The notes below the pieces were generated by a model. It had not been told where the DNA came from. It saw only the letters and a program-made list of their open reading frames with translations, and searched no databases. The position numbers and the translations under genes were made by a program. From positions 1 through 39,262 of the IMG/VR virus record IMGVR_UViG_3300014499_000002: a stretch of DNA of 39,262 bases, one strand, 5' to 3'. This DNA is from a virus. Of this stretch, positions 2,279 to 39,262 are shown one piece after another. Each line of letters begins with the position of its first letter. Position 1 is the first letter of the stretch.

Positions 2279-4480
2279 TTATTTACCTAATCGAACATCA
2301 ACTACATAATGATAATTAAAATACCCGTACCAATTCGTGCCTATCCCTGCTAATGGCGAGAAAGCCTGTACAAATGTTGACGTACTAGAAATATAAGTAA
2401 CAACCTTTGTTCCAGTTGACGTGAATGTAAAATTAGATGATAAAATATCAGCAGGTGCAAAAGATGCTCCGCCGCCATTAAAACCCACGCATTGTAATGA
2501 ATTTATAAGTCCAGATGGTGAATATAATGTCAAATCTGTACTTCCTACATTCGCACGCTTTTCTGTATCAAATATAATTTGTAAGTTTTGAGCGTAAACA
2601 GTTAAATTAGGTGAAGAGGCAACACTTAAAGTTAGTTGCTGGCGTTGTCCTGTAGCTGTCACAGCACCAGCCAGTATTCCCACATCATAAGAATCTTCAT
2701 AGTAAAATTGGCATTCATTTAACGTGGCATCAAAGGTTTTAGGAGGTGTCGCTATTGCAAAGCGGTTGGGTACTAATGAACAGGAATTAAATATTACAGA
2801 ATCGGCAGTACCAGTGCTTTGCATATTGGATACGGTGTATATAACAACACCAACTGTTTGTACCCCAGTGGTTGCCGCAGGTAATATAAAGTTATTAAAA
2901 GCATAATTTGCGTAGGTTGAACCCAGTGTATAAACAGGATCGTTTTCAGGAGCAATAGGGGGAATAGCAGTCCATCCCGCAGCAAAAACAGGGTCTTGTC
3001 CTGCTGTCCATGATGCAATAGGGTCGACTTGTGAAATCGTATTAGGCAGTGCAGGGTTTGATATTACACGCATCTTTACTTTTACCTGCGTACTATTGAC
3101 CGTGCTTATTCTTGCGTTCAGTAACGATGATACGATTGATGACCAATAAACATGAAATGTATTGGGATCGACGTACTGAATTAAAGCAAATTGGTTATTG
3201 GCAGTTAGTGCTTTTACTTGTAAATTAAAATTATCAGCAGTAGCAGCGCGTCCTGTTTGAACATTACTTCCTGTAGTACTTGCGACATAGGCTTGTTGTA
3301 TCAATATGGTCTGATCAGCTACATAGGCATTCACAGTTTGAGTTGTTAGTGTATTGGAATTGAACTGAAATGGATTTAAGCCAAAATCCCATCCTGTTAA
3401 TATCGTATCTTTAGGCTGAAATAGTATTGAATTGTAAAAATAGTGGAACAAATGATCGAGTTCGCGCTGTGGTGTTTGTTCAATAAAATTGGTTGTAGAA
3501 TTGACATTAGGAACTTCGACAAGTTGTACGCTTGTGAGTTGTATATGTGCGCCAGGATTGAACGTAAAAACAATATCAACATAACCTACGGTACTACTAT
3601 CTGTATTTATTACCCCATCAATTGCAGCAGTTCCAGTGTATTCAGAATATCCAGTTGCAGGAATTACTACATCAACCAATACATAACTTACCGCCGGCCC
3701 TGAAAGGATAGAGGGTACAAAACTCATAGTTATTTGGTGGGTAGCCCCATCTTGAGATTCAGCTACGAAAGAACCATTTGCAAAACCGTCATAGAACAGC
3801 CTAGGAGCGTTTGTGAGACGTTGCCTTAAAGAGATGCTAGTTACTGAAGCGGACGTGATATCGAGCAAATATGAAGGATTTGAAGGTATAACACTATTAC
3901 CTGCTGTAGCAATCTGCTGAACCGTTACAGTTCCGGTACCTGAAGTGACAACAACCCAGTCAGGTGCGATTTCCGTAATGATATTCGATCCAGTCACGCT
4001 AAACGTATAACCAGGCGATGCTGTATTAGGATTAAAACTAACTTGAGAGAACTGTGGATTTGATATTAAATTCTCTGTGATATTAGCTTCAGCGGCTGAC
4101 ACTGCCGTTACATTAGGCCAAGCATCCCGTGTAAATTGTAAAACACCAGCCGAACTGTAAACTGTTATGTAGTATAAATCGATAGTTCCATCGGAGTCAT
4201 CTGGTGTGCCATTGTAAGGGAAAAAATAAGGGACAATATCGTTGCCATTCTCATCGATAAATGTACCGACTGAGGATAACTGCATTGGATCTGGTAAGAC
4301 ATTATAGACATAGGTATTATTTGGTCCTGCTGATAATTGATAGACAGGTTTAAGAACAGTGTGATCGTTGTCTTCGTAGAATGTGACAATACCTGCAGAC
4401 AAAGGGAAGCCAGTATCTTTATCGACAAAATAATCTTGCAAAGGTGGCACTTGAACGAATCTTGGATCTAAACTCGGCAT
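2279..4480 (-). CDS. Large tail fibre protein, probable main receptor-binding appendage
   Basis: 733 residues, the largest tail gene. The N-terminus (MPSLDPRFVQVPPLQDYFVDKDTG, then SAGIVTFYED) is of the type that binds the tail or capsid vertex in phage fibres. After about residue 135 (ENLISNPQFSQV) comes a jelly-roll-like stretch resembling carbohydrate-binding modules, then an ELDHLFHYFYNSILF...GWDFGLNPFQF block (about 340-375) recurrent in phage fibre proteins, and a long beta-rich C-terminal half. P22's tailspike gp9 is not recognisable, so this protein probably takes its adhesion role. No hydrolase motif is visible. Confidence 0.75.
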   Translation of the reverse strand: MPSLDPRFVQVPPLQDYFVDKDTGFPLSAGIVTFYEDNDHTVLKPVYQLSAGPNNTYVYNVLPDPMQLSSVGTFIDENGNDIVPYFFPYNGTPDDSDGTIDLYYITVYSSAGVLQFTRDAWPNVTAVSAAEANITENLISNPQFSQVSFNPNTASPGYTFSVTGSNIITEIAPDWVVVTSGTGTVTVQQIATAGNSVIPSNPSYLLDITSASVTSISLRQRLTNAPRLFYDGFANGSFVAESQDGATHQITMSFVPSILSGPAVSYVLVDVVIPATGYSEYTGTAAIDGVINTDSSTVGYVDIVFTFNPGAHIQLTSVQLVEVPNVNSTTNFIEQTPQRELDHLFHYFYNSILFQPKDTILTGWDFGLNPFQFNSNTLTTQTVNAYVADQTILIQQAYVASTTGSNVQTGRAATADNFNLQVKALTANNQFALIQYVDPNTFHVYWSSIVSSLLNARISTVNSTQVKVKMRVISNPALPNTISQVDPIASWTAGQDPVFAAGWTAIPPIAPENDPVYTLGSTYANYAFNNFILPAATTGVQTVGVVIYTVSNMQSTGTADSVIFNSCSLVPNRFAIATPPKTFDATLNECQFYYEDSYDVGILAGAVTATGQRQQLTLSVASSPNLTVYAQNLQIIFDTEKRANVGSTDLTLYSPSGLINSLQCVGFNGGGASFAPADILSSNFTFTSTGTKVVTYISSTSTFVQAFSPLAGIGTNWYGYFNYHYVVDVRLGK

Positions 4481-8063: not shown

Positions 8064-9595
8064 TTATTGAGGTTCCTTCTTCGAGCTTGTTCAGCTTTTA
8101 GTGCTTCTAAATCATCTTCTGTTACTTGATTATTTTGTAATTTGTCTTTAATTTTATAATTAAGTCTTGCAGCATTTGCACGTCGTCCTGCTTCTTGTAA
8201 TTTTTCACCAATTTTATGTTCTACAGCAGTCCACGTTTCTTCATCAACAAGTGGCCTTAGAATTTTTATATCTGTCATGGCTTTTGTTGTCATGTCTCTA
8301 AGCGCTGGAACAGTGGCTCTAGCATTGGCTACTAATAAACGAAGGCCGGATAATTCTGGACTTAAACCACGGGCTGCTAGAAAATCAATTTGTTGTTGTT
8401 TGTTTTTTCCTTGCAATGCATCTTTTACTTGCGCTGGACTAAATCCAAAAACTGTTCTCGAATATGGCCCAAGCGCTTCCGCTATAAAGTTCTCCATATA
8501 ATCCAATTCCGCTAATGATGCTTTTTGTTGGTTTACTTTTGTTCTATCGGCCGGTGTATTAATGGCAATGGGTTCAGGAGGATTTTTTGGATCAAAACCT
8601 TTTTCTTTCAACAAATCATCGACAGATTCACCTTCAGATAATCTTCTATTAGCCTCATTAGTATTATACCCAGCTCCAGCAAGTTGGCCCAAATCATTTA
8701 TTTTGGCATCATTAGGCTCTTTCATCCAAGCATAACCTTTTTCTTGTTTTGCTCGTAATCTATCACGTGATTCAGCAGAATTTTCTAATACTTTTTGATG
8801 AGCAGCTTTTGCATCTAACATTTTTTGATATTGTTGTACTTCAGGTGTATCGCCCTCTTTCATTCTTTTTTGATTTAACCAGTTCTGTGTTGCAACATCG
8901 CCACTTGGTTTAACTTCAGTAGCTTGTTTTTCACCAGATAATTTTCTGATTAATGATTTCCTATAAAGGTCAACAAAATTTGGTTCAGCTTGTTGAGCTG
9001 GTTGTTTTCCAAAATTAATTGGCTCAACATAATTGCCGGTTTCATTTGGCTGTCTTGACGGTTCAGCTTGTTGAGCTGGTTGTTTTCCAAAATTAATTGG
9101 CTCAACATAATTGCCGGTTTCATTTGGCTGTCTTGACGGCTCAGTTTCATTCGCTGCATTGGTTTCAGGAGTTGAGGTATTGCCCATTCCTAGTAATTCT
9201 GGATTTGATTGTAATAAAGCTAATGCTCGTAGTTCAGGGGGTAGATTAGGCAATCGTAAAGCAGGATTTTTTTTATAAATAGCCTCTAATGCTGCTGCTT
9301 GCTGGTTTTGTCGGTTTAATGTATTAGTTGATGCCCCAAGATGCGACGTGTTAGCACGCTTATTTTGTAAATCAGCCAATGTGATATCACGCGCAAACTC
9401 AGCTTTAGGTGCATTAATCTTATTCTCAAGCTGCAGCTTAAGCAGGTTCTCAGCTAATGTTTTGGGCGTATAGGCCGCTTTGCCAGTCTCTTGAAAAGCC
9501 TTTAGTCCTTTGACGAAGGAATCCATGAAACTGCCTCTGCCTGTTGCACCTTCTGCTGATAATTGAAAGGGAACCTGTGGTAAGTTGATAGCCAT
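8060..9595 (-). CDS. DNA ejection protein, gp20-like position, with duplicated linker
   Basis: 511 residues, hydrophilic, rich in Gln, Asn, Ala and Glu. The N-terminal 100 residues are helical; the linker at about 150-205 carries an exact 26-residue tandem duplication (unit includes SRQPNETGNYVEPINFGKQP), and a conserved-looking helical C-terminal third begins around residue 350 (KASLAELDYMENFIAEALGPYSRTV). It lies between the 221- and 741-residue genes, the position of P22 gp20, and overlaps the latter by ATGA. Assignment rests on order and composition. Confidence 0.65.
   Translation of the reverse strand: MAINLPQVPFQLSAEGATGRGSFMDSFVKGLKAFQETGKAAYTPKTLAENLLKLQLENKINAPKAEFARDITLADLQNKRANTSHLGASTNTLNRQNQQAAALEAIYKKNPALRLPNLPPELRALALLQSNPELLGMGNTSTPETNAANETEPSRQPNETGNYVEPINFGKQPAQQAEPSRQPNETGNYVEPINFGKQPAQQAEPNFVDLYRKSLIRKLSGEKQATEVKPSGDVATQNWLNQKRMKEGDTPEVQQYQKMLDAKAAHQKVLENSAESRDRLRAKQEKGYAWMKEPNDAKINDLGQLAGAGYNTNEANRRLSEGESVDDLLKEKGFDPKNPPEPIAINTPADRTKVNQQKASLAELDYMENFIAEALGPYSRTVFGFSPAQVKDALQGKNKQQQIDFLAARGLSPELSGLRLLVANARATVPALRDMTTKAMTDIKILRPLVDEETWTAVEHKIGEKLQEAGRRANAARLNYKIKDKLQNNQVTEDDLEALKAEQARRRNLNK
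8982..9137. repeat. 78-bp perfect tandem duplication within the ejection-protein gene
   Basis: Bases 8982-9059 are repeated exactly at 9060-9137, followed by a partial, slightly diverged third start. The period of 78 bp keeps the frame (26 residues). Absence of any substitution between copies implies a recent or actively maintained expansion in a flexible linker. Confidence 0.95.
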
Positions 9596-9604
9596 AATTT
9601 ATCC

Positions 9605-10270
9605 TTACATGAATAACCAAGGAGCTGCACTGGAAAGACCACTAAATAAATCTGACCAGTTATTAGCTTTACCTTTGTTTTCACCTTCTTCACCTGCATA
9701 GCCATATTGCGCTTTCTGTCCAGTTACATTCCCAAGGATGTCGGCATATTTCTGACCAGCTTCATTTCCACGATTTACTATACCTTCCTGACCGGTTAGA
9801 CCTGTATTCATTATTCCAAGTATATGATTCATATAATCCATAAAATCTTGGTCTGCATAGCCCTCAGCAACTTTAGTAGCGTTTTCTTGATGGAAGGGGG
9901 TACCCAAAGTACCACCTTGTGCTGACGCGTTACTAGCAGCTCCTAAACCCTGTTTAAGCTTGAATTGGTAACCAGGTGATTCTTTATACCCTTCGCCTAA
10001 TTTATTAAATGTTTCACCAGGATTGTTTGCTAATTGCTGATACAAAGCTTGTTGATTAGGTGCTGTATATTGGCCACGGTTAATTGCATCTTGATAATAT
10101 GGATTTGTTTGGCCTGGTATTTGGTCTAAATAATTGTTGGCCTCAGTAGCAGGATTTTTTCCTTTACCAAGACCAAACAATCCAGCTATTCCTGATAAAC
10201 CCGATCCTATTCCGCCAGCAATACCAAGATTCTTAAATATAGTGTTGTAATCAAAATTGTTTGTAGCCAT
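9605..10270 (-). CDS. Internal virion/ejection protein, gp7-like position
   Basis: 221 residues. The N-terminus contains a Gly-rich hydrophobic segment (NLGIAGGIGSGLSGIAGLFGLGKG), followed by a Tyr/Gln/Asn-rich middle with LGAASNASAQGGTLGTP and a Gly-rich C-terminus. P22 gp7 is of similar size and occupies the same place, downstream of gp10 and gp26 and before gp20. It is probably a small ejection protein that helps form the trans-envelope channel. Order supports this more than sequence. Confidence 0.6.
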   Translation of the reverse strand: MATNNFDYNTIFKNLGIAGGIGSGLSGIAGLFGLGKGKNPATEANNYLDQIPGQTNPYYQDAINRGQYTAPNQQALYQQLANNPGETFNKLGEGYKESPGYQFKLKQGLGAASNASAQGGTLGTPFHQENATKVAEGYADQDFMDYMNHILGIMNTGLTGQEGIVNRGNEAGQKYADILGNVTGQKAQYGYAGEEGENKGKANNWSDLFSGLSSAAPWLFM

Positions 10271-10310
10271 AATTTTCTCACATCCTGTGATAGCTCTATT
10301 ATATCGGTTA

Positions 10311-10643
10311 TTAAGTTAATGTAACAGTTTTGAACAATGGTGGTGTTGTTGGGTATGTATTGTCATTACGTACCGCTATGACAACTTTATCTTGCGTATA
10401 ATCACTGGGATGTTGCGAATAAAGGATGGTTCCCAACTGGCAAGTATAATAGCCCTGTTCATTTTGGTTATTCTGTATAATCGTTATATTCGAAGGAGAC
10501 TGTGTTGGTGGTACTAGACCTTCGGGGCCTGCATTATTACGCAACTCCTGGATTAACTGATCCATAAATACTTGTTCAGTAGGTGTTCGCATTTTGTTGT
10601 CATCGACTACTGGCGATAGAGCGGGTAGATTAGGTATGTTCAC
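10311..10643 (-). CDS. Small tail-module protein in the gp26 (needle) position
   Basis: 110 residues. The N-terminus is proline-rich (MNIPNLPALSPVVDDNKMRTP) with a short helix, then a beta-rich C-terminal half (YYTCQLGTILYSQ...). It overlaps the gp10-like stop by ATGA. In P22 the gene after gp10 encodes the tail needle gp26, a much longer coiled coil; here no long coiled coil is seen, so this may be a plug of another type or an unrelated virion protein. Confidence 0.55.
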   Translation of the reverse strand: MNIPNLPALSPVVDDNKMRTPTEQVFMDQLIQELRNNAGPEGLVPPTQSPSNITIIQNNQNEQGYYTCQLGTILYSQHPSDYTQDKVVIAVRNDNTYPTTPPLFKTVTLT

Positions 10644-12238
10644 TGATATATCTCCGCTACTCCGTCAAATAATACAAACCTGCCAAAACCCCAACATTGA
10701 ATCATAATCGATGAATCATTAGCTATTCCAAGACGCAAATAATTAAACAACGATTTTCTATTACCTGTTGGATTCATATTGCGCCGTAATTGATTGCCCC
10801 AGTTGACCCCGCCATCTCTTGATATAGATAAATCTATGGCTTCCGATGCTAGTTGAAACTCATTGATGCCGCGATTCGCCTTTTGTTCTAAGCCAATCGG
10901 AATAAAGTTTTCTGTACCAATAATATTGCCGTCCTCACTACCTAGCGCGATCGGGTCTCCACTATAAAAGAATTTGGTTTGTATGGCATTGGGTTGTCCA
11001 TTTTCCACCATAAAAGAGAGCGATTTGATAATATAATACCGCTGTGATGGTAATCGTAATGGAGGGCAAATTCTTATACGTGGTATTTGCCTAATATCAT
11101 CGGCTGCATATTGGTAATTAGTATATTGGGTGCCAAATTCATATAAATTACCATCATTAAAACTAACGAAATAATACTGATTATTAAAAAATACGACCTT
11201 GCGAGCGATATGGTAATTTAGATTTTCATCGCTAACTGTGTAAAACTGGTTTAAATCAAAATCGTAAATATAGGATAGATTGTCAGTCTTAAATGTAAAC
11301 TGGTAAAATAAATGACCATCTAGTTTGATTAGGAATCCAACGCAATCAGTAGGATCGGTTAGTCCTGAGAATTTAAAGTCTAATCCATCTGTTGAGATTT
11401 CTTTAATGCTATTGCCATCCGATACCATGATTACAGGGCCAGATTGCTCATTCGCTGCTAACCATACAGTGTGCTCGCCTAAATCAGCAATGGAGGCGGC
11501 ATTTAAACAGCCATAATCTACGTTATAGGAATTCTGGCGGTTATAGGGAAATAAAGCTGCTCCTACATCCACCCAAGGTTCAACTACGTTGGAGCCAAAC
11601 AAGAACAGAAGATTACCTTTACCAGGGAAAGGAACTGCCGCTTGTACCGTATCAGGCTTTGACTGCAAGGAACCTACATGCGATGAATCATTTGGCCAGA
11701 CCGTACCATCATTAAAAGCTGATAATAACCAAGTTGACGTATTTAAACACGCTAATATAAATCGACCATTTTGGAATGATATGTACCCAGGGGATACATT
11801 AAATAAAAACGATGCTGTAAGCGAAAGTCCTGTAACAGTAGTGACAATATTTGTATTGTAATCGTAAACATAAATATTAACGCCATCTGTAATCGCTATT
11901 TGTCCGCCATTATTTTCAGCAATATAGACTTCACCATTCGTAGTTGCAATTGATAACAAAAACATTGTTCCTAATACTGACGATATTCTGTAAATAGCAT
12001 CGCCCACTACAGCAATCATGATATTAGCGCGTGTACTAGAATATAATCCTCGGCCTACACCAGCAGGATTAAGTGTGATTTTATTAATGTAACCTGCATA
12101 ATCTACGAGCGCACCATCGCTTATAATCATGTTATAGGTTTGTTCTTGCGATATCTTAGGATAGCGTCCGAATTTTGTACCGCCAACGATAGTTAATGGT
12201 ATAGGTTCAATATTCTGTTTTGCATAAGGTGCTACCAT
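10640..12238 (-). CDS. P22 gp10-like packaged-DNA stabilisation/tail hub protein
   Basis: 532 residues from the ATG at 12238 (MVAPYAKQNIEPIPLTIVGG), which has AAGGA 7 nt upstream; an earlier in-frame ATG would only add residues overlapping the gp4-like gene. The IVGGTKFGRYPKISQEQTYNMIISDGALVDYAGY N-terminal block and the repeated beta structure, ending in RLGIANDSSIMIQCWGFGRFVLFDG, are typical of the gp10 family, which closes the portal channel after DNA packaging. P22 gp10 is 472 residues. It follows the gp4-like gene as in P22. Confidence 0.8.
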   Translation of the reverse strand: MVAPYAKQNIEPIPLTIVGGTKFGRYPKISQEQTYNMIISDGALVDYAGYINKITLNPAGVGRGLYSSTRANIMIAVVGDAIYRISSVLGTMFLLSIATTNGEVYIAENNGGQIAITDGVNIYVYDYNTNIVTTVTGLSLTASFLFNVSPGYISFQNGRFILACLNTSTWLLSAFNDGTVWPNDSSHVGSLQSKPDTVQAAVPFPGKGNLLFLFGSNVVEPWVDVGAALFPYNRQNSYNVDYGCLNAASIADLGEHTVWLAANEQSGPVIMVSDGNSIKEISTDGLDFKFSGLTDPTDCVGFLIKLDGHLFYQFTFKTDNLSYIYDFDLNQFYTVSDENLNYHIARKVVFFNNQYYFVSFNDGNLYEFGTQYTNYQYAADDIRQIPRIRICPPLRLPSQRYYIIKSLSFMVENGQPNAIQTKFFYSGDPIALGSEDGNIIGTENFIPIGLEQKANRGINEFQLASEAIDLSISRDGGVNWGNQLRRNMNPTGNRKSLFNYLRLGIANDSSIMIQCWGFGRFVLFDGVAEIYQ

Positions 12239-34215: not shown

Positions 34216-34374
34216 ACTCCTTAAAACCATTTCGTGCAACTTCACGATATGGTGACGGGCTTTCACCGTCTTCGACCCCTATTAGTGCCAGCCCTTGCAC
34301 CCAGCTTAAGCATTACGCTCTTTCTATGGATTAGGCTGGAAATCCTCTCACTACTAACCATGGCTAGTGAGTAC
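34216..34374 (-). ncRNA. Structured non-coding region downstream of the first tRNA-like element
   Basis: Contains, on the minus strand, CTCACTA/TAGTGAG (7 bp), CCAGC/GCTGG, GACGG/CCGTC and TCGTG/CACGA hairpins within 160 nt and no convincing reading frame. It follows directly after the CCA of the tRNA-like element, so could be a 3' domain of the same RNA or the leader of the next gene. Only self-complementarity supports it. Confidence 0.4.
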
Positions 34375-34510
34375 TGGTGACAGTGGTAGGAATCGAACCT
34401 ACTCTGCATCGTTTCACACGGCAACTTTTGATCAGGTCTCCGACGACACGCAATATGGCGCAGGTCTTTCAAGTACTATGCCCGCTAACCCAACTGCGGT
34501 ACAACTGTCA
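34375..34510 (-). ncRNA. tRNA-like structured RNA, copy 1
   Basis: Minus-strand 5' GACAGT pairs with 3' ACTGTC followed by A-CCA. A D-arm-like stem (CCGC/GCGG with loop AGTTGGGTTA) and a canonical T-arm (GTAGG-TTCGATT-CCTAC, 34386-34402) are present. Between them lies about 80 nt rather than a 23-40 nt anticodon and variable region. This includes a 67-nt core (34411-34477) shared with copy 2. A tRNA-Ser-like CTTGAAA loop occurs but has no proper stem. G-U pairs in the stems fit only the minus strand. Confidence 0.7.
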
Positions 34511-34516
34511 TAATTT

Positions 34517-34705
34517 TTATTCAACTTCCTTTAATTCTTCGAATTGTTGTTTGGTTATATCGCTGAGAAGGTCTGTTATTTTACTGCCATTTTTAATAAC
34601 GGCATTTATAATATCTTCTCTAACCATACCTGTGCAATCACAGATTGCCATTAATGTATATGTATTTCCTATTAGTTGCATTACCTGTTTTTCACTGATT
34701 ATCAT
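34517..34705 (-). CDS. Small protein of unknown function
   Basis: 62 residues, helical (MIISEKQVMQLIGNTYTLMA; then REDIINAVIKNGSKITDLLSDITKQQFEEL). Overlaps the upstream gene by 14 nt. Ends just upstream of tRNA-like copy 1. Confidence 0.55.
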   Translation of the reverse strand: MIISEKQVMQLIGNTYTLMAICDCTGMVREDIINAVIKNGSKITDLLSDITKQQFEELKEVE

Positions 34706-34898
34706 TTTCTTTCCACATATATTTGCATTTATCGCAATAATTCATCCAGCCGTCATATCTATATCTATAAGACTGAGGATGCTCGCAATAGTTATCGATC
34801 ATGGATTGTATTTTCTGACACAATTTAGTATGAACTTTCGGATTACCGAAAAGGTGATACTTTAACTGCTCAAGATCTTCTTTCGTGAAATCATTCAT
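34692..34898 (-). CDS. Small zinc-site protein, copy A of a tandem pair
   Basis: 68 residues from MNDFTKEDLEQLKYHLFG; an earlier ATG is unlikely since this one overlaps the upstream stop as ATGA. The end holds CDKC and a further Cys pair further back (LCQK, YCEH). The DFTKE-L and KIQSMIDNY motifs recur in the next gene upstream, so the two are paralogues made by tandem duplication. Confidence 0.6.
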   Translation of the reverse strand: MNDFTKEDLEQLKYHLFGNPKVHTKLCQKIQSMIDNYCEHPQSYRYRYDGWMNYCDKCKYMWKENDNQ

Positions 34899-35077
34899 TG
34901 AACATGTCCACATTTCTCACAATGCCAAACTTCTACTACCTTCGCGTCATAGTTATCAATTATATCTTGTATTTTTTTCATCAATGGGCTTTCTTCTACA
35001 AGGCCGTCCAAATCATCAAAATAATACTCAAACTTCCAATAGATCTCTATTAACTCTTCTTTCGTGAAATCACTCAT
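34895..35077 (-). CDS. Small zinc-site protein, copy B of a tandem pair
   Basis: 60 residues (MSDFTKEELIEIYWKFEYYF start). Shares DFTKEEL and KIQDIIDNY with copy A and ends WHCEKCGHVQ, a CxxC site. Overlaps neighbours by 4 and 8 nt. Confidence 0.6.
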   Translation of the reverse strand: MSDFTKEELIEIYWKFEYYFDDLDGLVEESPLMKKIQDIIDNYDAKVVEVWHCEKCGHVQ

Positions 35078-35252
35078 CTTTACACCTGTCTAAAGGTAGC
35101 ATATTTGTAAATTTATATTGTAATATCCAAAGTTCAACTAATGTAAAAGCGTGCATCATGCCATCTTTTTGTGCACAATCATCAGACAATAATTCCTCTT
35201 TTCTTGCAATTATTCTTTGTAATATAAATTGTTCGAGTGATTCAGTATTCAT
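35070..35252 (-). CDS. Small protein of unknown function
   Basis: 60 residues, helical (LEQFILQRIIARKEELLSDDCAQ). Resembles phage proteins placed beside small DUF551-type genes, but no domain can be named. Overlaps the DUF551-like gene by 4 nt. Confidence 0.55.
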   Translation of the reverse strand: MNTESLEQFILQRIIARKEELLSDDCAQKDGMMHAFTLVELWILQYKFTNMLPLDRCKDE

Positions 35253-35458
35253 TTGGGATAGTCCGGCAAAGGAATCCAGTGTGTTACTTGAATATCATTA
35301 ATTAAGCCAACGTTGCCATAAAACATATATGTGCAATACCAGATACTATCCTTATTATATCCCGTCATTATGTCGTGTCTGTGAAGCCCATGAGTTGCAT
35401 AAAATATAACTTCTTGAAATCGTTCTGGCATTTGGTCTTTGCAGCTAATCCAGTTCAT
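35249..35458 (-). CDS. DUF551-like small phage protein
   Basis: 69 residues. MNWISCKDQMPERFQEVIFYAT at the start and VTHWIPLPDYPK at the end match the DUF551 pattern (W......MP....V......VTHW.PLP.PP). Its molecular function is not known; common among phage early or accessory genes. Confidence 0.8.
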   Translation of the reverse strand: MNWISCKDQMPERFQEVIFYATHGLHRHDIMTGYNKDSIWYCTYMFYGNVGLINDIQVTHWIPLPDYPK

Positions 35459-35675
35459 TAGCTTCGCCCTGTATGCGTTTATGGTCTTCTTCAGTCAAAG
35501 AATTATGCCATACCATATAGTCATCATAACAAGTATCACAAATGGTCTTAATGGTGTCTTTATAGGCAAAATCACCGTACAATGCTTCATATTCTTTACG
35601 AGCGTCTTCATCTGGACGGTCAGAATTAAACGTTGTTAAGCATTCAGAACATTCATAGATAATTTCCTTCAGCAT
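35445..35675 (-). CDS. Zinc-ribbon small protein
   Basis: 76 residues. CSEC (9-12) and CDTC (46-49) form a four-cysteine site; acidic in between (DRPDEDARKEYEAL). Overlaps neighbours by 7 and 14 nt. Role unknown. Confidence 0.6.
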   Translation of the reverse strand: MLKEIIYECSECLTTFNSDRPDEDARKEYEALYGDFAYKDTIKTICDTCYDDYMVWHNSLTEEDHKRIQGEANELD

Positions 35676-35860
35676 CCGATTTGTTCCTCTAACTCCCTAA
35701 TCTTATCGTCTTGCAAATTAATATAGGCATTAAGCCCTAATATAAGCTCATCTAAAGCGCCTACTTTGTCGTAGATATCCAATATCATGTCTCTTAAATG
35801 TTCAATGTCGCCAGTAATTTCCATATTGTTAGCGCTAGTTTTCGATACTAGGCTTTTCAT
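35669..35860 (-). CDS. Small coiled-coil protein
   Basis: 63 residues with heptads through EHLRDMILDIYDKVGALDEL and further leucine-rich turns. A second ATG (MEITGD) 12 codons in is possible. Lies 32 nt downstream of tRNA-Tyr. Confidence 0.55.
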   Translation of the reverse strand: MKSLVSKTSANNMEITGDIEHLRDMILDIYDKVGALDELILGLNAYINLQDDKIRELEEQIGC

Positions 35861-35891
35861 GATTACTATTTCCTCATTTTTTTATTATTTC

Positions 35892-35977
35892 TGGTGGAGT
35901 GGGAAAGATTCGAACTTTCACGTGCTAGACGACCGCCGGTTTACAGCCGGGTTCCATACCAATTAGGAGTCCACTCC
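35892..35977 (-). tRNA. tRNA-Tyr (GUA)
   Basis: Acceptor GGAGTGG/CCACTCC with A and encoded CCA, anticodon arm CCGG-CTGTAAA-CCGG (anticodon GTA), long variable arm as usual for bacterial tRNA-Tyr and T-arm GAAAG-TTCGAAT-CTTTC. 86 nt. It overlaps the end of the 101-residue reading frame by 53 nt. Confidence 0.9.
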
Positions 35978-36230
35978 GTAATTTGACAGATTCTAGCGTA
36001 TTCAATAATATTAGCCAACTGTCTTTGTCCATATCCATACCATAATTATTGGTTTCTACTGCTTTTTTTATTTCTTTAATGATTAGTTCGATAGTATGTT
36101 GTTCTAATTCTATAACATTGTCAGTGATAATGTCGCATATTAGTGAAGGCATATAAGTCATTCTGCCTAATGCATAGCGGAAGGAACAAACTATAAGTGT
36201 ATTAAAGTCATTATTGGTTATTTTTAACAT
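35925..36230 (-). CDS. Unknown protein whose 3' end runs into tRNA-Tyr
   Basis: 101 residues. The first 84 look like normal helical coding sequence (IVCSFRYALGRMTYMPSLICDIITDNVIELEQ); the last 17 (SGLLIGMEPGCKPAVV included) are encoded by tRNA-Tyr bases. The original end may have been lost when the tRNA arrived. No function assigned. Confidence 0.55.
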   Translation of the reverse strand: MLKITNNDFNTLIVCSFRYALGRMTYMPSLICDIITDNVIELEQHTIELIIKEIKKAVETNNYGMDMDKDSWLILLNTLESVKLRSGLLIGMEPGCKPAVV

Positions 36231-36238
36231 CTATATCC

Positions 36239-36631
36239 CTATCTATTATATTTAATTATCTCTGGCTGTTCATCTTCTTCATACCATTTCCAACCATAAT
36301 ATCCTGTCATATAAGGTTTTATCCAGTCTAAGAACAGGTCTATTTCATTGTCATAGTTTTTTAGATCGCATCTTAAGAAAACATACGCACCTTGATTAAT
36401 TCCATTTTGATTCTGTTTATAACGTACAGTAAATGGCATAAAATAAAAACTACTCATATGTCCAATATTATTCCATCTAAAACATTTGAAAAATGGATGA
36501 TCGGGCGTTTTAATATCCTCTATCAAATCGGCTGAACATTCATTAAAAAAATAATCCAACATTACATATACTTCATCTGGCAAGTTAGGCTTTGTTTCGC
36601 CTTGGAAAATAAACTCTGTATACATTCCCAT
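36239..36631 (-). CDS. Conserved phage protein of unknown function
   Basis: 130 residues. MGMYTEFIFQGETKPNLPDE opens, then HPFFKCFRWNNIGHMSSFYFMPFTVRYKQ and a YVFLRCDLKNYDNEIDLFLDWIKPYM block, a pattern known from phage proteins of unknown function. It is a moderately conserved moron or accessory gene, placed between tRNA-Gln and the tRNA-Tyr gene. Confidence 0.65.
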   Translation of the reverse strand: MGMYTEFIFQGETKPNLPDEVYVMLDYFFNECSADLIEDIKTPDHPFFKCFRWNNIGHMSSFYFMPFTVRYKQNQNGINQGAYVFLRCDLKNYDNEIDLFLDWIKPYMTGYYGWKWYEEDEQPEIIKYNR

Positions 36632-36697
36632 GGACTTCCTTATAAAACGAACTAAATTGATTATTTAATACAACTATACTTTAACTATTCTGTCTTA

Positions 36698-36771
36698 TGG
36701 AAGCGCTGCCGAGACTCGAACTCAGAACAACAGGATCAAAATCTGCTGTGTTACCATTACACCACAGCGCA
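36698..36771 (-). tRNA. tRNA-Gln (UUG)
   Basis: 74 nt on the minus strand. Acceptor GCGCTG/CAGCGC with an unpaired T1-T72 as tolerated in tRNA-Gln, D-arm GTGT/ACAC, anticodon loop TTTTGAT (TTG), T-arm CTGAG-TTCGAGT-CTCGG and encoded CCA. The anticodon stem has a G-U pair and an A-C mismatch, so it may be weakened. It lies 10 nt downstream of tRNA-like copy 2. Confidence 0.8.
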
Positions 36772-36781
36772 ATAATAGGGC

Positions 36782-36903
36782 GACAAGCGTAAGCATTTCA
36801 GCTTAGAGGAAGTTTCACACCGCAACTCATGCCCAGGTCTCGGACTTCCTAGAATATGGCTCAGGGCTTAAAAGTACTTTCTACGTTTTCTGTCTCGCTT
36901 GTC
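36782..36903 (-). ncRNA. tRNA-like structured RNA, copy 2
   Basis: Closed by an 8-bp stem GACAAGCG/CGCTTGTC (36896-36903 with 36782-36789), with a T-arm-like TAAGC-TGAAAT-GCTTA near the 3' end and a G-CCC end. The 67-nt core (36812-36878) aligns without gaps to copy 1 with 51 identities. Two helices in the core (7 bp and 3 bp) are kept by paired changes. Compared with copy 1 it lacks a clear D-arm and the TTCGA loop, and the end is not CCA. Confidence 0.7.
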
Positions 36904-36913
36904 ATGTAAAGAA

Positions 36914-37227
36914 GCCAACGCATAACGTTGGCTCAACTCTTTCCCCCATAGGTAGATGAGATTAAAGGCAGCGATTTAAGCTTAGATGCGACCATGTAAT
37001 GCTAGAGGCTTGCTGCCTAATTATTGCCACATGCTGCAATTTCGTCCTGTGTGGCGCTTGACCTCATAACGCTTTAGCAGCTTAGCTACCCTAATCGTGC
37101 CAACTAAGGTTTTGCTAGGAACGCCGTAACGATCCCGAATACTCTTTCTACGCCATGGTAGATGAGCTGTTGACCAAGCCCAAGACAAAATGTCTATTCT
37201 AACTTCGCATTTCTAATAAGGGCTCGG
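36914..37227 (-). ncRNA. Highly structured non-coding region 5' of tRNA-like copy 2
   Basis: About 310 nt without a credible gene, in a 472-nt gap (36772-37243). Stems: CCGAGCCC/GGGCTTGG (37220-37227 with 37174-37181), AGACA/TGTCT (37183-37195), ATCGT/ACGAT (37094-37133), GCCACA/TGTGGC (37026-37055), AGGCAGC/GCTGCCT (36966-37018) stacked on AAGC/GCTT, and GCCAACG/CGTTGGC (36914-36932). A G-U pair in the first stem fits only the minus strand. A 25-nt motif (ACTCTTTC...GGTAGATGAG) occurs at 36936 and 37141. Could be one RNA together with copy 2. Confidence 0.6.
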
Positions 37228-37243
37228 CTACATAAATTTACCA

Positions 37244-38771: not shown

Positions 38772-39262
38772 TTAAGAAAATTCCCACACTATTACTATAC
38801 CGGGCCCACCTCTGCCACCTCCTGCATTAGAACCCCCTTGTCCCGCAGTTGCGCCTCCTCCACCAGCACCATAGCAGTTTGTTAGTGCACCTGCACCGGC
38901 AGTTTGAACAAGTCCTTTTCCACCACCGCCCCAATAAGAATTAGCTCCATACCCTCCTGCATAAGCGGTCAACATCATTGCTCCGTTAGACCCTGGGCCA
39001 CCAAAACCATATATATCAGCGGTACCTGGATTATTTCCACCAACTCCACCTTGGGCAAAAGCTGCTCCTGTAATTGCTACAGCTGCAGTACCATTTCCGC
39101 CGCCACCACCACCTGCATCCATTACATCAAAAATACTATCTCCTCCAGAAGAGCCATTATTTGCGCCTGCAGTTCCTCCGGCTCCTCCTGCTCCTACTGT
39201 ATAAGAATAAGAAGACCCAATTGAAGAGTAAAATTTTCTTTGATATGAGCCGCTACCACCAC
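38772..39262 (-). CDS. Glycine-rich tail fibre/appendage protein, C-terminal part (starts at 410 across the join)
   Basis: This frame has no start of its own that fits well; it is open to base 39262 and is the same frame as 1-410 once the 85-bp overlap is removed (both have their lower codon base divisible by 3). It holds VMDAGGGGGGNGTAAVAITGA, GGGGKGLVQTAGAGALTNCYGAGGGGATAG and ends RGGPGIVIVWEFS, a motif common to glycine-rich phage tail tips. A shorter internal start at 39122 (MDAGG) is rejected because of the open upstream frame. Confidence 0.85.
   Translation of the reverse strand, partial: GGSGSYQRKFYSSIGSSYSYTVGAGGAGGTAGANNGSSGGDSIFDVMDAGGGGGGNGTAAVAITGAAFAQGGVGGNNPGTADIYGFGGPGSNGAMMLTAYAGGYGANSYWGGGGKGLVQTAGAGALTNCYGAGGGGATAGQGGSNAGGGRGGPGIVIVWEFS
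39178..39262. repeat. 85-bp terminal direct repeat, right copy
   Basis: Identical to 1-85; see there. The duplicated bases encode part of the glycine-rich tail protein. Confidence 0.95.

Follow-up and report, generated by a model that had tools for sequence, protein, structure and literature searches.

Two related RNA elements in a phage genome

What kind of RNA is specified by two related elements that lie among transfer RNA (tRNA) genes on the minus strand of the virus record IMGVR_UViG_3300014499_000002? The stretch analysed here, referred to as the window, comprises all 39,262 nucleotides (nt) of that IMG/VR record. In each element, called copy 1 and copy 2, a tRNA-like frame (the chassis) holds a conserved insert (the cargo) in place of the anticodon arm. 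Sequence comparison suggests that both belong to one family, core A, within a modular class of phage RNAs, and that they act in trans as stable RNAs whose cargo binds a target; the probability of this reading is put at about 0.5. Its parts differ in strength: the architecture is very probably as described, processing of the ends in the manner of a tRNA is reasonably likely, and a role as a trans-binding decoy or modulator is doubtful.

The initial annotation had reported a gapless 67-nt core shared by the two copies (34411-34477 and 36812-36878, 51 of 67 positions identical), and this was borne out; the best ungapped match of the core in 20 shuffled windows was 35/67, against 51/67 for the real pair. 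The four conserved blocks named in it occur at the same offsets in both copies. The T-arm, D-arm and CCA ascribed to copy 1 are genuine, and a closing stem and T-arm are present in both copies. To this can be added that copy 2 is closed by a tRNA-like acceptor, after which comes a D-arm-like hairpin of two base pairs (bp). The pseudoknot, the replacement of the anticodon arm and the place of the core as one of dozens of cargos were likewise absent from that annotation. The features are listed below, where R1 is a covariance model of the family and P2 and P3 are helices.

34375-34510, minus strand: copy 1, tRNA-like RNA with canonical elbow and core cargo (R1 73.5 bits, E 4.5e-17, not in the training set)
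34502-34509, minus strand: copy 1 acceptor 5' strand GACAGTTG with one bulged U, pairing with CACTGTC at 34379-34385 as GACAGT(bulged U)G/CACTGTC
34482-34499, minus strand: copy 1 canonical D-arm CCGC-AGTTGGGTTA-GCGG, from the sequence and the cmscan alignment
34411-34477, minus strand: copy 1 core cargo replacing the anticodon arm, 51/67 identical to copy 2
34443-34449 with 34406-34412, minus strand: copy 1 P2, GTGTCGT/ACGATGC, covarying pairs
34440-34442 with 34419-34421, minus strand: copy 1 P3, inside P2, covarying pairs
34463-34466 with 34430-34433, minus strand: copy 1 pseudoknot, GACC with GATC, one C.A mismatch
34386-34402, minus strand: copy 1 T-arm GTAGG-TTCGATT-CCTAC, from the sequence, the tRNA model and R1
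34375-34385, minus strand: copy 1 acceptor 3' strand CACTGTC, discriminator A and CCA, from the sequence
36778-36904, minus strand: copy 2, tRNA-like RNA with core cargo (R1 156.3 bits, member of the training set)
36896-36903 with 36782-36789, minus strand: copy 2 acceptor of 8 bp, GACAAGCG/CGCTTGTC, covarying
36883-36893, minus strand: copy 2 short D-arm-like hairpin AC-AGAAAAC-GT, with AC/GT, CC/GG and GC/GC covariation
36812-36878, minus strand: copy 2 core cargo, 51/67 identical to copy 1
36844-36850 with 36807-36813, minus strand: copy 2 P2, covarying
36841-36843 with 36820-36822, minus strand: copy 2 P3, covarying
36864-36867 with 36831-36834, minus strand: copy 2 pseudoknot, GCCC with GGGC, 4/4 pairs covarying
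36790-36805, minus strand: copy 2 T-arm TAAGC-TGAAAT-GCTTA, covarying

Copy 1 has all three chassis arms and a non-anticodon insert, and copy 2 has a reduced, 2-bp D-arm. Both match R1 with P2, P3, the pseudoknot, the acceptor and the T-arm, which places them in the core A family.

Homologues, structure and covariation of core A

Further members were found by IMG/VR pattern scans together with R1, which was trained on eight compact sequences. This covariance-model and phage search, of a kind that the initial annotation had proposed, yielded 15 distinct homologues beyond the window copies and thus 17 members in total, all in records of uncultivated phages; R1 recovered nine members outside its training set (copy 1 and eight phage loci or contigs, which carry L labels: L001, L004, L005, L223, L228, L278, L343 and L344). 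No match to core A was obtained in 50,697 phage isolates, 72,556 plasmids or 5,426 Escherichia coli genomes, and among the matches listed from a loose-pattern scan of genome contigs, none passed the core check. The compared records come from phages that are related but diverged. Compact members are 78-93% identical to copy 2 over the element, and the 67-nt core is 84-86% identical to it in L001, L005 and L006; conserved portal and capsid gene stretches in the same phages are about 64-74% identical.

In every member the core stands where a tRNA has its anticodon arm, and it is accompanied by an acceptor stem (mostly 8 bp), a D-arm-like hairpin (mostly of two pairs) and a T-arm whose 5-bp stem closes a loop of 6-7 nt. 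The core itself is an H-type pseudoknot with many invariant nucleotides, mostly unpaired. P2 has 7 bp, P3 is CSG/CSG, and the pseudoknot joins the 5' part of the core, in the segment preceding UGAGCYAUAUU, to the loop of P3 through four pairs, all four of which covary; it is 98.5% paired across the 17 sequences. The initial annotation had proposed that P2 stays paired where the copies differ (GTGTCGT/ACGATGC versus AGGAAGT/ACTTCCT) and that an inner CGG/CCG becomes CCG/CGG. Both changes are as claimed, and both helices covary across the 17 homologues.

In the 17-sequence alignment (A4), which was fitted to the nested structure with the pseudoknot outside the model, 99.0% of cells are paired and double-sided changes occur in 23 of 29 pairs. 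The covariation score is 0.572 versus 0.143 for shuffled alignments, with slid controls below 0.09, and none of 500 shuffles reaches any of the five measures, a control that is inflated by kinship among the sequences. A structure-free MAFFT alignment of eight members gave 99.6% pairing and 14 double-changed pairs, pseudoknot included. The compensatory changes span six helices, among them the pseudoknot, and include some G-U pairs. Insertions and deletions among the homologues are not multiples of three, which argues against coding; translation, which the initial annotation had named as grounds for refutation, was rejected for this reason. Of the earlier interpretation, a homologous, structured, tRNA-like RNA pair with covariation retained in further phages is supported.

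A same-strand tRNA lies at most 100 nt away in 7/17 members (every tRNA at this distance is on the same strand), and in 5/17 the distance is 5-11 nt. At one locus (L223/G012, about 10040-10930), a phage tRNA array is interleaved with a type-2 chassis RNA (see below) and core A, and it contains a further RNA, GGCATTAAG...CTTAGTGCC-ACCA, with a tRNA-like acceptor.

Modularity in both directions

Core A occurs in three tRNA-like chassis, each with its own pair of D-loop and T-loop.

Canonical chassis (copy 1): GG-containing D-loop AGTTGGGTTA, T-loop TTCGATT (UUCGAUU)
Type-2 chassis (L001, L005, L006, L278): D-loop GACAGTGA, T-loop TGCAATT, five-pair D-stem
Third chassis (copy 2 and most others): D-loop AGNAAAM, T-loop TGARAT, two-pair D-stem

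The two loops vary jointly between chassis, as a docked tRNA elbow would impose, so that the D-arm and T-arm probably form such an elbow.

The type-2 chassis carries other inserts too, which makes core A one cargo of what appears to be a modular class. An insert-independent search for the chassis with D-loop GACAGUGA and T-loop UGCAAUU gave 52 and 34 contig matches; among 81 distinct candidates, acceptor, D-stem and T-stem were all present in 64 RNAs on 61 phage contigs. Their inserts measure 42-160 nt and fall into 59 distinct clusters (blastn). An acceptor of at least 7 bp was present in 63/74, compared with 7.2 on average when 3' strands were exchanged. Across 31 distinct excised chassis, double-sided changes affect 8/8 pairs of the acceptor and the majority of those in the D- and T-stems, with a covariation score of 0.759 versus 0.178; since these chassis were selected for pairing, with loops and inner T-stem pairs preset by the search pattern, only the variety of pair types counts. 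The acceptor sequence varies freely across the class. A structural scan that used neither D-loop nor T-stem sequence gave 70 matches in 715 kilobases (kb) and none in the shuffled control; run on contigs already found, it confirms the class and is no measure of its spread. One phage (L005) has two RNAs with almost identical chassis and unrelated inserts, and L282 and L290 have two chassis RNAs each. Anticodon arms and closing anticodon stems were no commoner in the inserts than in shuffled ones, and the inserts had no Rfam match in the loci scanned. A tRNA lies within 500 nt of 13/64 chassis RNAs, compared with 4% of random positions.

Unrelated inserts were also seen in chassis RNAs whose elbow is canonical (D-loop with GG, T-loop with TTC), on the minus strand of L261 (1055-1154), L281 (2780-2880) and L228 (890-1041), in reverse-complement numbering. 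At 3705-3828, L326 has a probable tRNA (anticodon TGG) that scores 47.7 bits with the tRNA model; its anticodon arm is normal, and its variable region, at about 60 nt, is enlarged.

One cargo in three chassis and one chassis with dozens of cargos together look like an undescribed modular RNA class. Secondary structure, pseudoknot and modularity of cargo and chassis in both directions are each supported by these comparisons. Novelty as a class rests on the two-way modularity; core A alone could be called a new tRNA-like RNA family. The open-access literature yielded no account of interchangeable cargo in a tRNA chassis, and to our knowledge no described system employs a tRNA mimic as a general carrier of structured effector RNAs.

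Relation to known RNAs

At gathering cut-offs, the Rfam scan returned only tRNA, and no family matched the core, in agreement with the earlier statement that no known family fits. Core A RNAs resemble tRNA (RF00005) in acceptor, D-arm and T-arm, with the acceptor and T-arm both covarying, and differ in lacking an anticodon arm. The tRNA model gives copy 1 a score of 22.7 bits, short of the cut-off (29), and aligns it with 68 nt inserted at the anticodon arm; copy 2 is not listed against that model in the same scan, which also reported the sub-cut-off copy 1. The 8+5-bp (13-bp) stack of acceptor and T-arm is shared with bacterial tRNA-Sec, where such a stack is found and normally disfavours EF-Tu; by analogy, it should be a point against ordinary EF-Tu use.

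In transfer-messenger RNA (tmRNA), a tRNA-like acceptor and T-arm are combined with pseudoknotted sequence replacing the anticodon arm. Core A RNAs have the same topology with the anticodon arm replaced, whereas they are much shorter, have a real D-stem and lack a tag open reading frame and G3.U70. ARAGORN detected no tmRNA and Rfam gave no tmRNA match. The first proposal that the elements are neither tRNA nor tmRNA is supported. The bacterial Y RNA YrlA, which is noncoding and in some cases carried by phages, also contains a domain that mimics tRNA, but its topology differs; none of the loci scanned matched it in Rfam at curated cut-offs.

Among known RNAs, T4 RNAC is the closest analogue. 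RNAC and RNAD (species 1 and 2) are stable RNAs of 139 and 119 nt from a phage tRNA cluster, with function given as unknown (PMC3014915), and are expressed late (PMC9697503). RNAC is likewise a small RNA in a phage tRNA cluster and has a canonical T-arm (CCGGG-TTCGAAT-CCCGG), but it scores 6.9 bits with R1, not above flanking noise, and lacks core A; by this model it is not a homologue. Interchangeable cargo is a feature of the phage chassis RNAs of which RNAC gives no sign. GOLLD and ROOL are structured phage RNAs near tRNA islands, also of unknown function (PMC12286853). They are hundreds of nucleotides long and are not tRNA-chassis RNAs, and neither had an Rfam match here. The earlier suggestion that the elements form part of a large ornate RNA therefore falls away, as they stand alone in varied contexts and match no GOLLD or ROOL model.

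Proposed mechanism and alternative explanations

The RNA would be transcribed together with neighbouring phage tRNAs, where any exist. RNase P would generate its 5' end, and the enzymes for tRNA 3' processing and CCA addition would trim and complete its 3' end. The resulting RNA, about 125 nt long, would be stable, would not decode and, given its 8+5-bp stack, would be no ordinary EF-Tu ligand. The chassis would protect and present the cargo, which would bind a conserved host or phage protein or RNA in trans; its likeliest role in infection would be that of a decoy or modulator.

Several points weigh against this reading. Expression, processing and binding are predictions from sequence; binding in trans is a guess based on conserved unpaired nucleotides and cargo turnover. 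In 5/17 core A members no tRNA was detected on the locus, and a 3' CCA is encoded in some members only. No conserved protein partner was found nearby: the commonest family within 5 kb is found in 11/61 contigs, and a dedicated protein partner was rejected accordingly. In the wider class, the inserts are on average no more stable in folding than shuffled sequence (minimum free energy z-scores), so most other cargos can be taken as structured only by inference.

Other explanations account for parts of the evidence. Action on the translation machinery, by a mimic that is charged by a synthetase or enters the ribosome in a tmRNA-like layout, would fit the acceptor, T-arm, D-arm and CC(A)-like ends, and tmRNA has the same topology, with pseudoknots replacing the anticodon arm. 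It seems unlikely: ARAGORN finds no tmRNA, acceptor pair 3 is C-G (14 of the 17 members) or U-A (3) and not G.U, the acceptor sequence varies freely, and the tRNA-Sec-like stack is normally unfavourable for EF-Tu. That the elements are cis-acting processing or spacing parts of a phage tRNA operon is decidedly unlikely. The five members 5-11 nt from a tRNA speak for it, but many members have no tRNA nearby, and a spacer needs neither invariant unpaired loops nor cargo diversity. A riboswitch or self-cleaving ribozyme in a tRNA frame would explain an H-type pseudoknot rich in invariant unpaired nucleotides; this, too, is improbable: Rfam returned neither a riboswitch nor a ribozyme with E values allowed up to 10, no downstream gene was seen in a consistent position, and the closed acceptor would be unusual in a cis-regulator.

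Two further readings are very remote. The elements might be real tRNAs in disguise or with an intron, whose removal restores the anticodon arm. Copy 1 has the canonical D-arm, T-arm and CCA for this, and GCAT/ATGC can close at anticodon-stem positions; against it, inserts of 42-160 nt are too small for group I introns, no anticodon arm or closing stem exceeds shuffled inserts, and the elbow loops are non-canonical in most core A members. A tRNA with an intron or giant variable loop was rejected on the anticodon-arm result for both core A and the type-2 class. A DNA-level element for packaging, recombination or integration that merely resembles RNA is about equally hard to credit. Modular insert swapping does imply recombination at the chassis, yet compensatory changes in six helices, with the pseudoknot and G-U pairs among them, fit RNA, and the elements are often placed among same-strand tRNAs.

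Genomic surroundings

The window begins and ends with identical 85-bp direct repeats (1-85 and 39178-39262), the pattern that direct terminal repeats would give, and is likely a complete genome. It encodes a P22-like portal, a terminase and exonuclease VIII (RecE)-like and RecT-like proteins, and has a near-identical 88-bp repeat pair at 8982-9147. Both tRNAs below are on the same strand as the two copies.

36698-36771, minus strand: tRNA-Gln (TTG), 7 nt downstream of copy 2, from the tRNA search
35895-35977, minus strand: tRNA with anticodon loop CTGTAAA (Tyr), between copies 1 and 2, Rfam tRNA model 47.0 bits

Just downstream of copy 1, a second structured RNA is probable at 34220-34374 (minus strand). 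It has a hairpin followed by a second hairpin whose loop seems pseudoknotted with a downstream GGCTGG/GGCAG/TGTACC segment, together with a GRCGG-TGAAAG-type hairpin; compensatory changes are visible by eye across three phages (counterparts in L002, about 325-465, and on the minus strand of L004, about 3408-3556 in reverse-complement numbering), and it has no Rfam match. Upstream of copy 2, 36905-37243 (minus strand) is gene-free, with repeated CATCTACC..GTAGAAAGAGT units. In L021 and L052, similar sequence adjoins core A; Vibrio phage 1.084.O has a match of 61 nt.

A terminase 68% identical to that of the window (G516:C287:4-1341, L342) comes from a genome of the order that holds Legionella, which gives a hint of host range. 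Core A was not found in the 2.8-kb piece carrying that terminase, nor was the chassis pattern in 369 genomes of Legionella's class.

Significance for phage biology

These RNAs may form a cassette-like system, an extension held tentatively, in which one tRNA-shaped scaffold matured by the host tRNA machinery would carry dozens of unrelated effector RNA domains swapped by recombination, each with a different host or competitor target, and core A would be the first whose pseudoknot fold is defined and conserved. If the RNAs are made, phages would be using tRNA mimicry as a general means of delivering and protecting structured effector RNAs. This would offer a way into the old question of why phage tRNA clusters contain stable RNAs other than tRNAs, such as T4 RNAC and RNAD, and would provide dozens of natural cargo domains with targets open to pull-down, as well as a natural tRNA scaffold usable for RNA expression.

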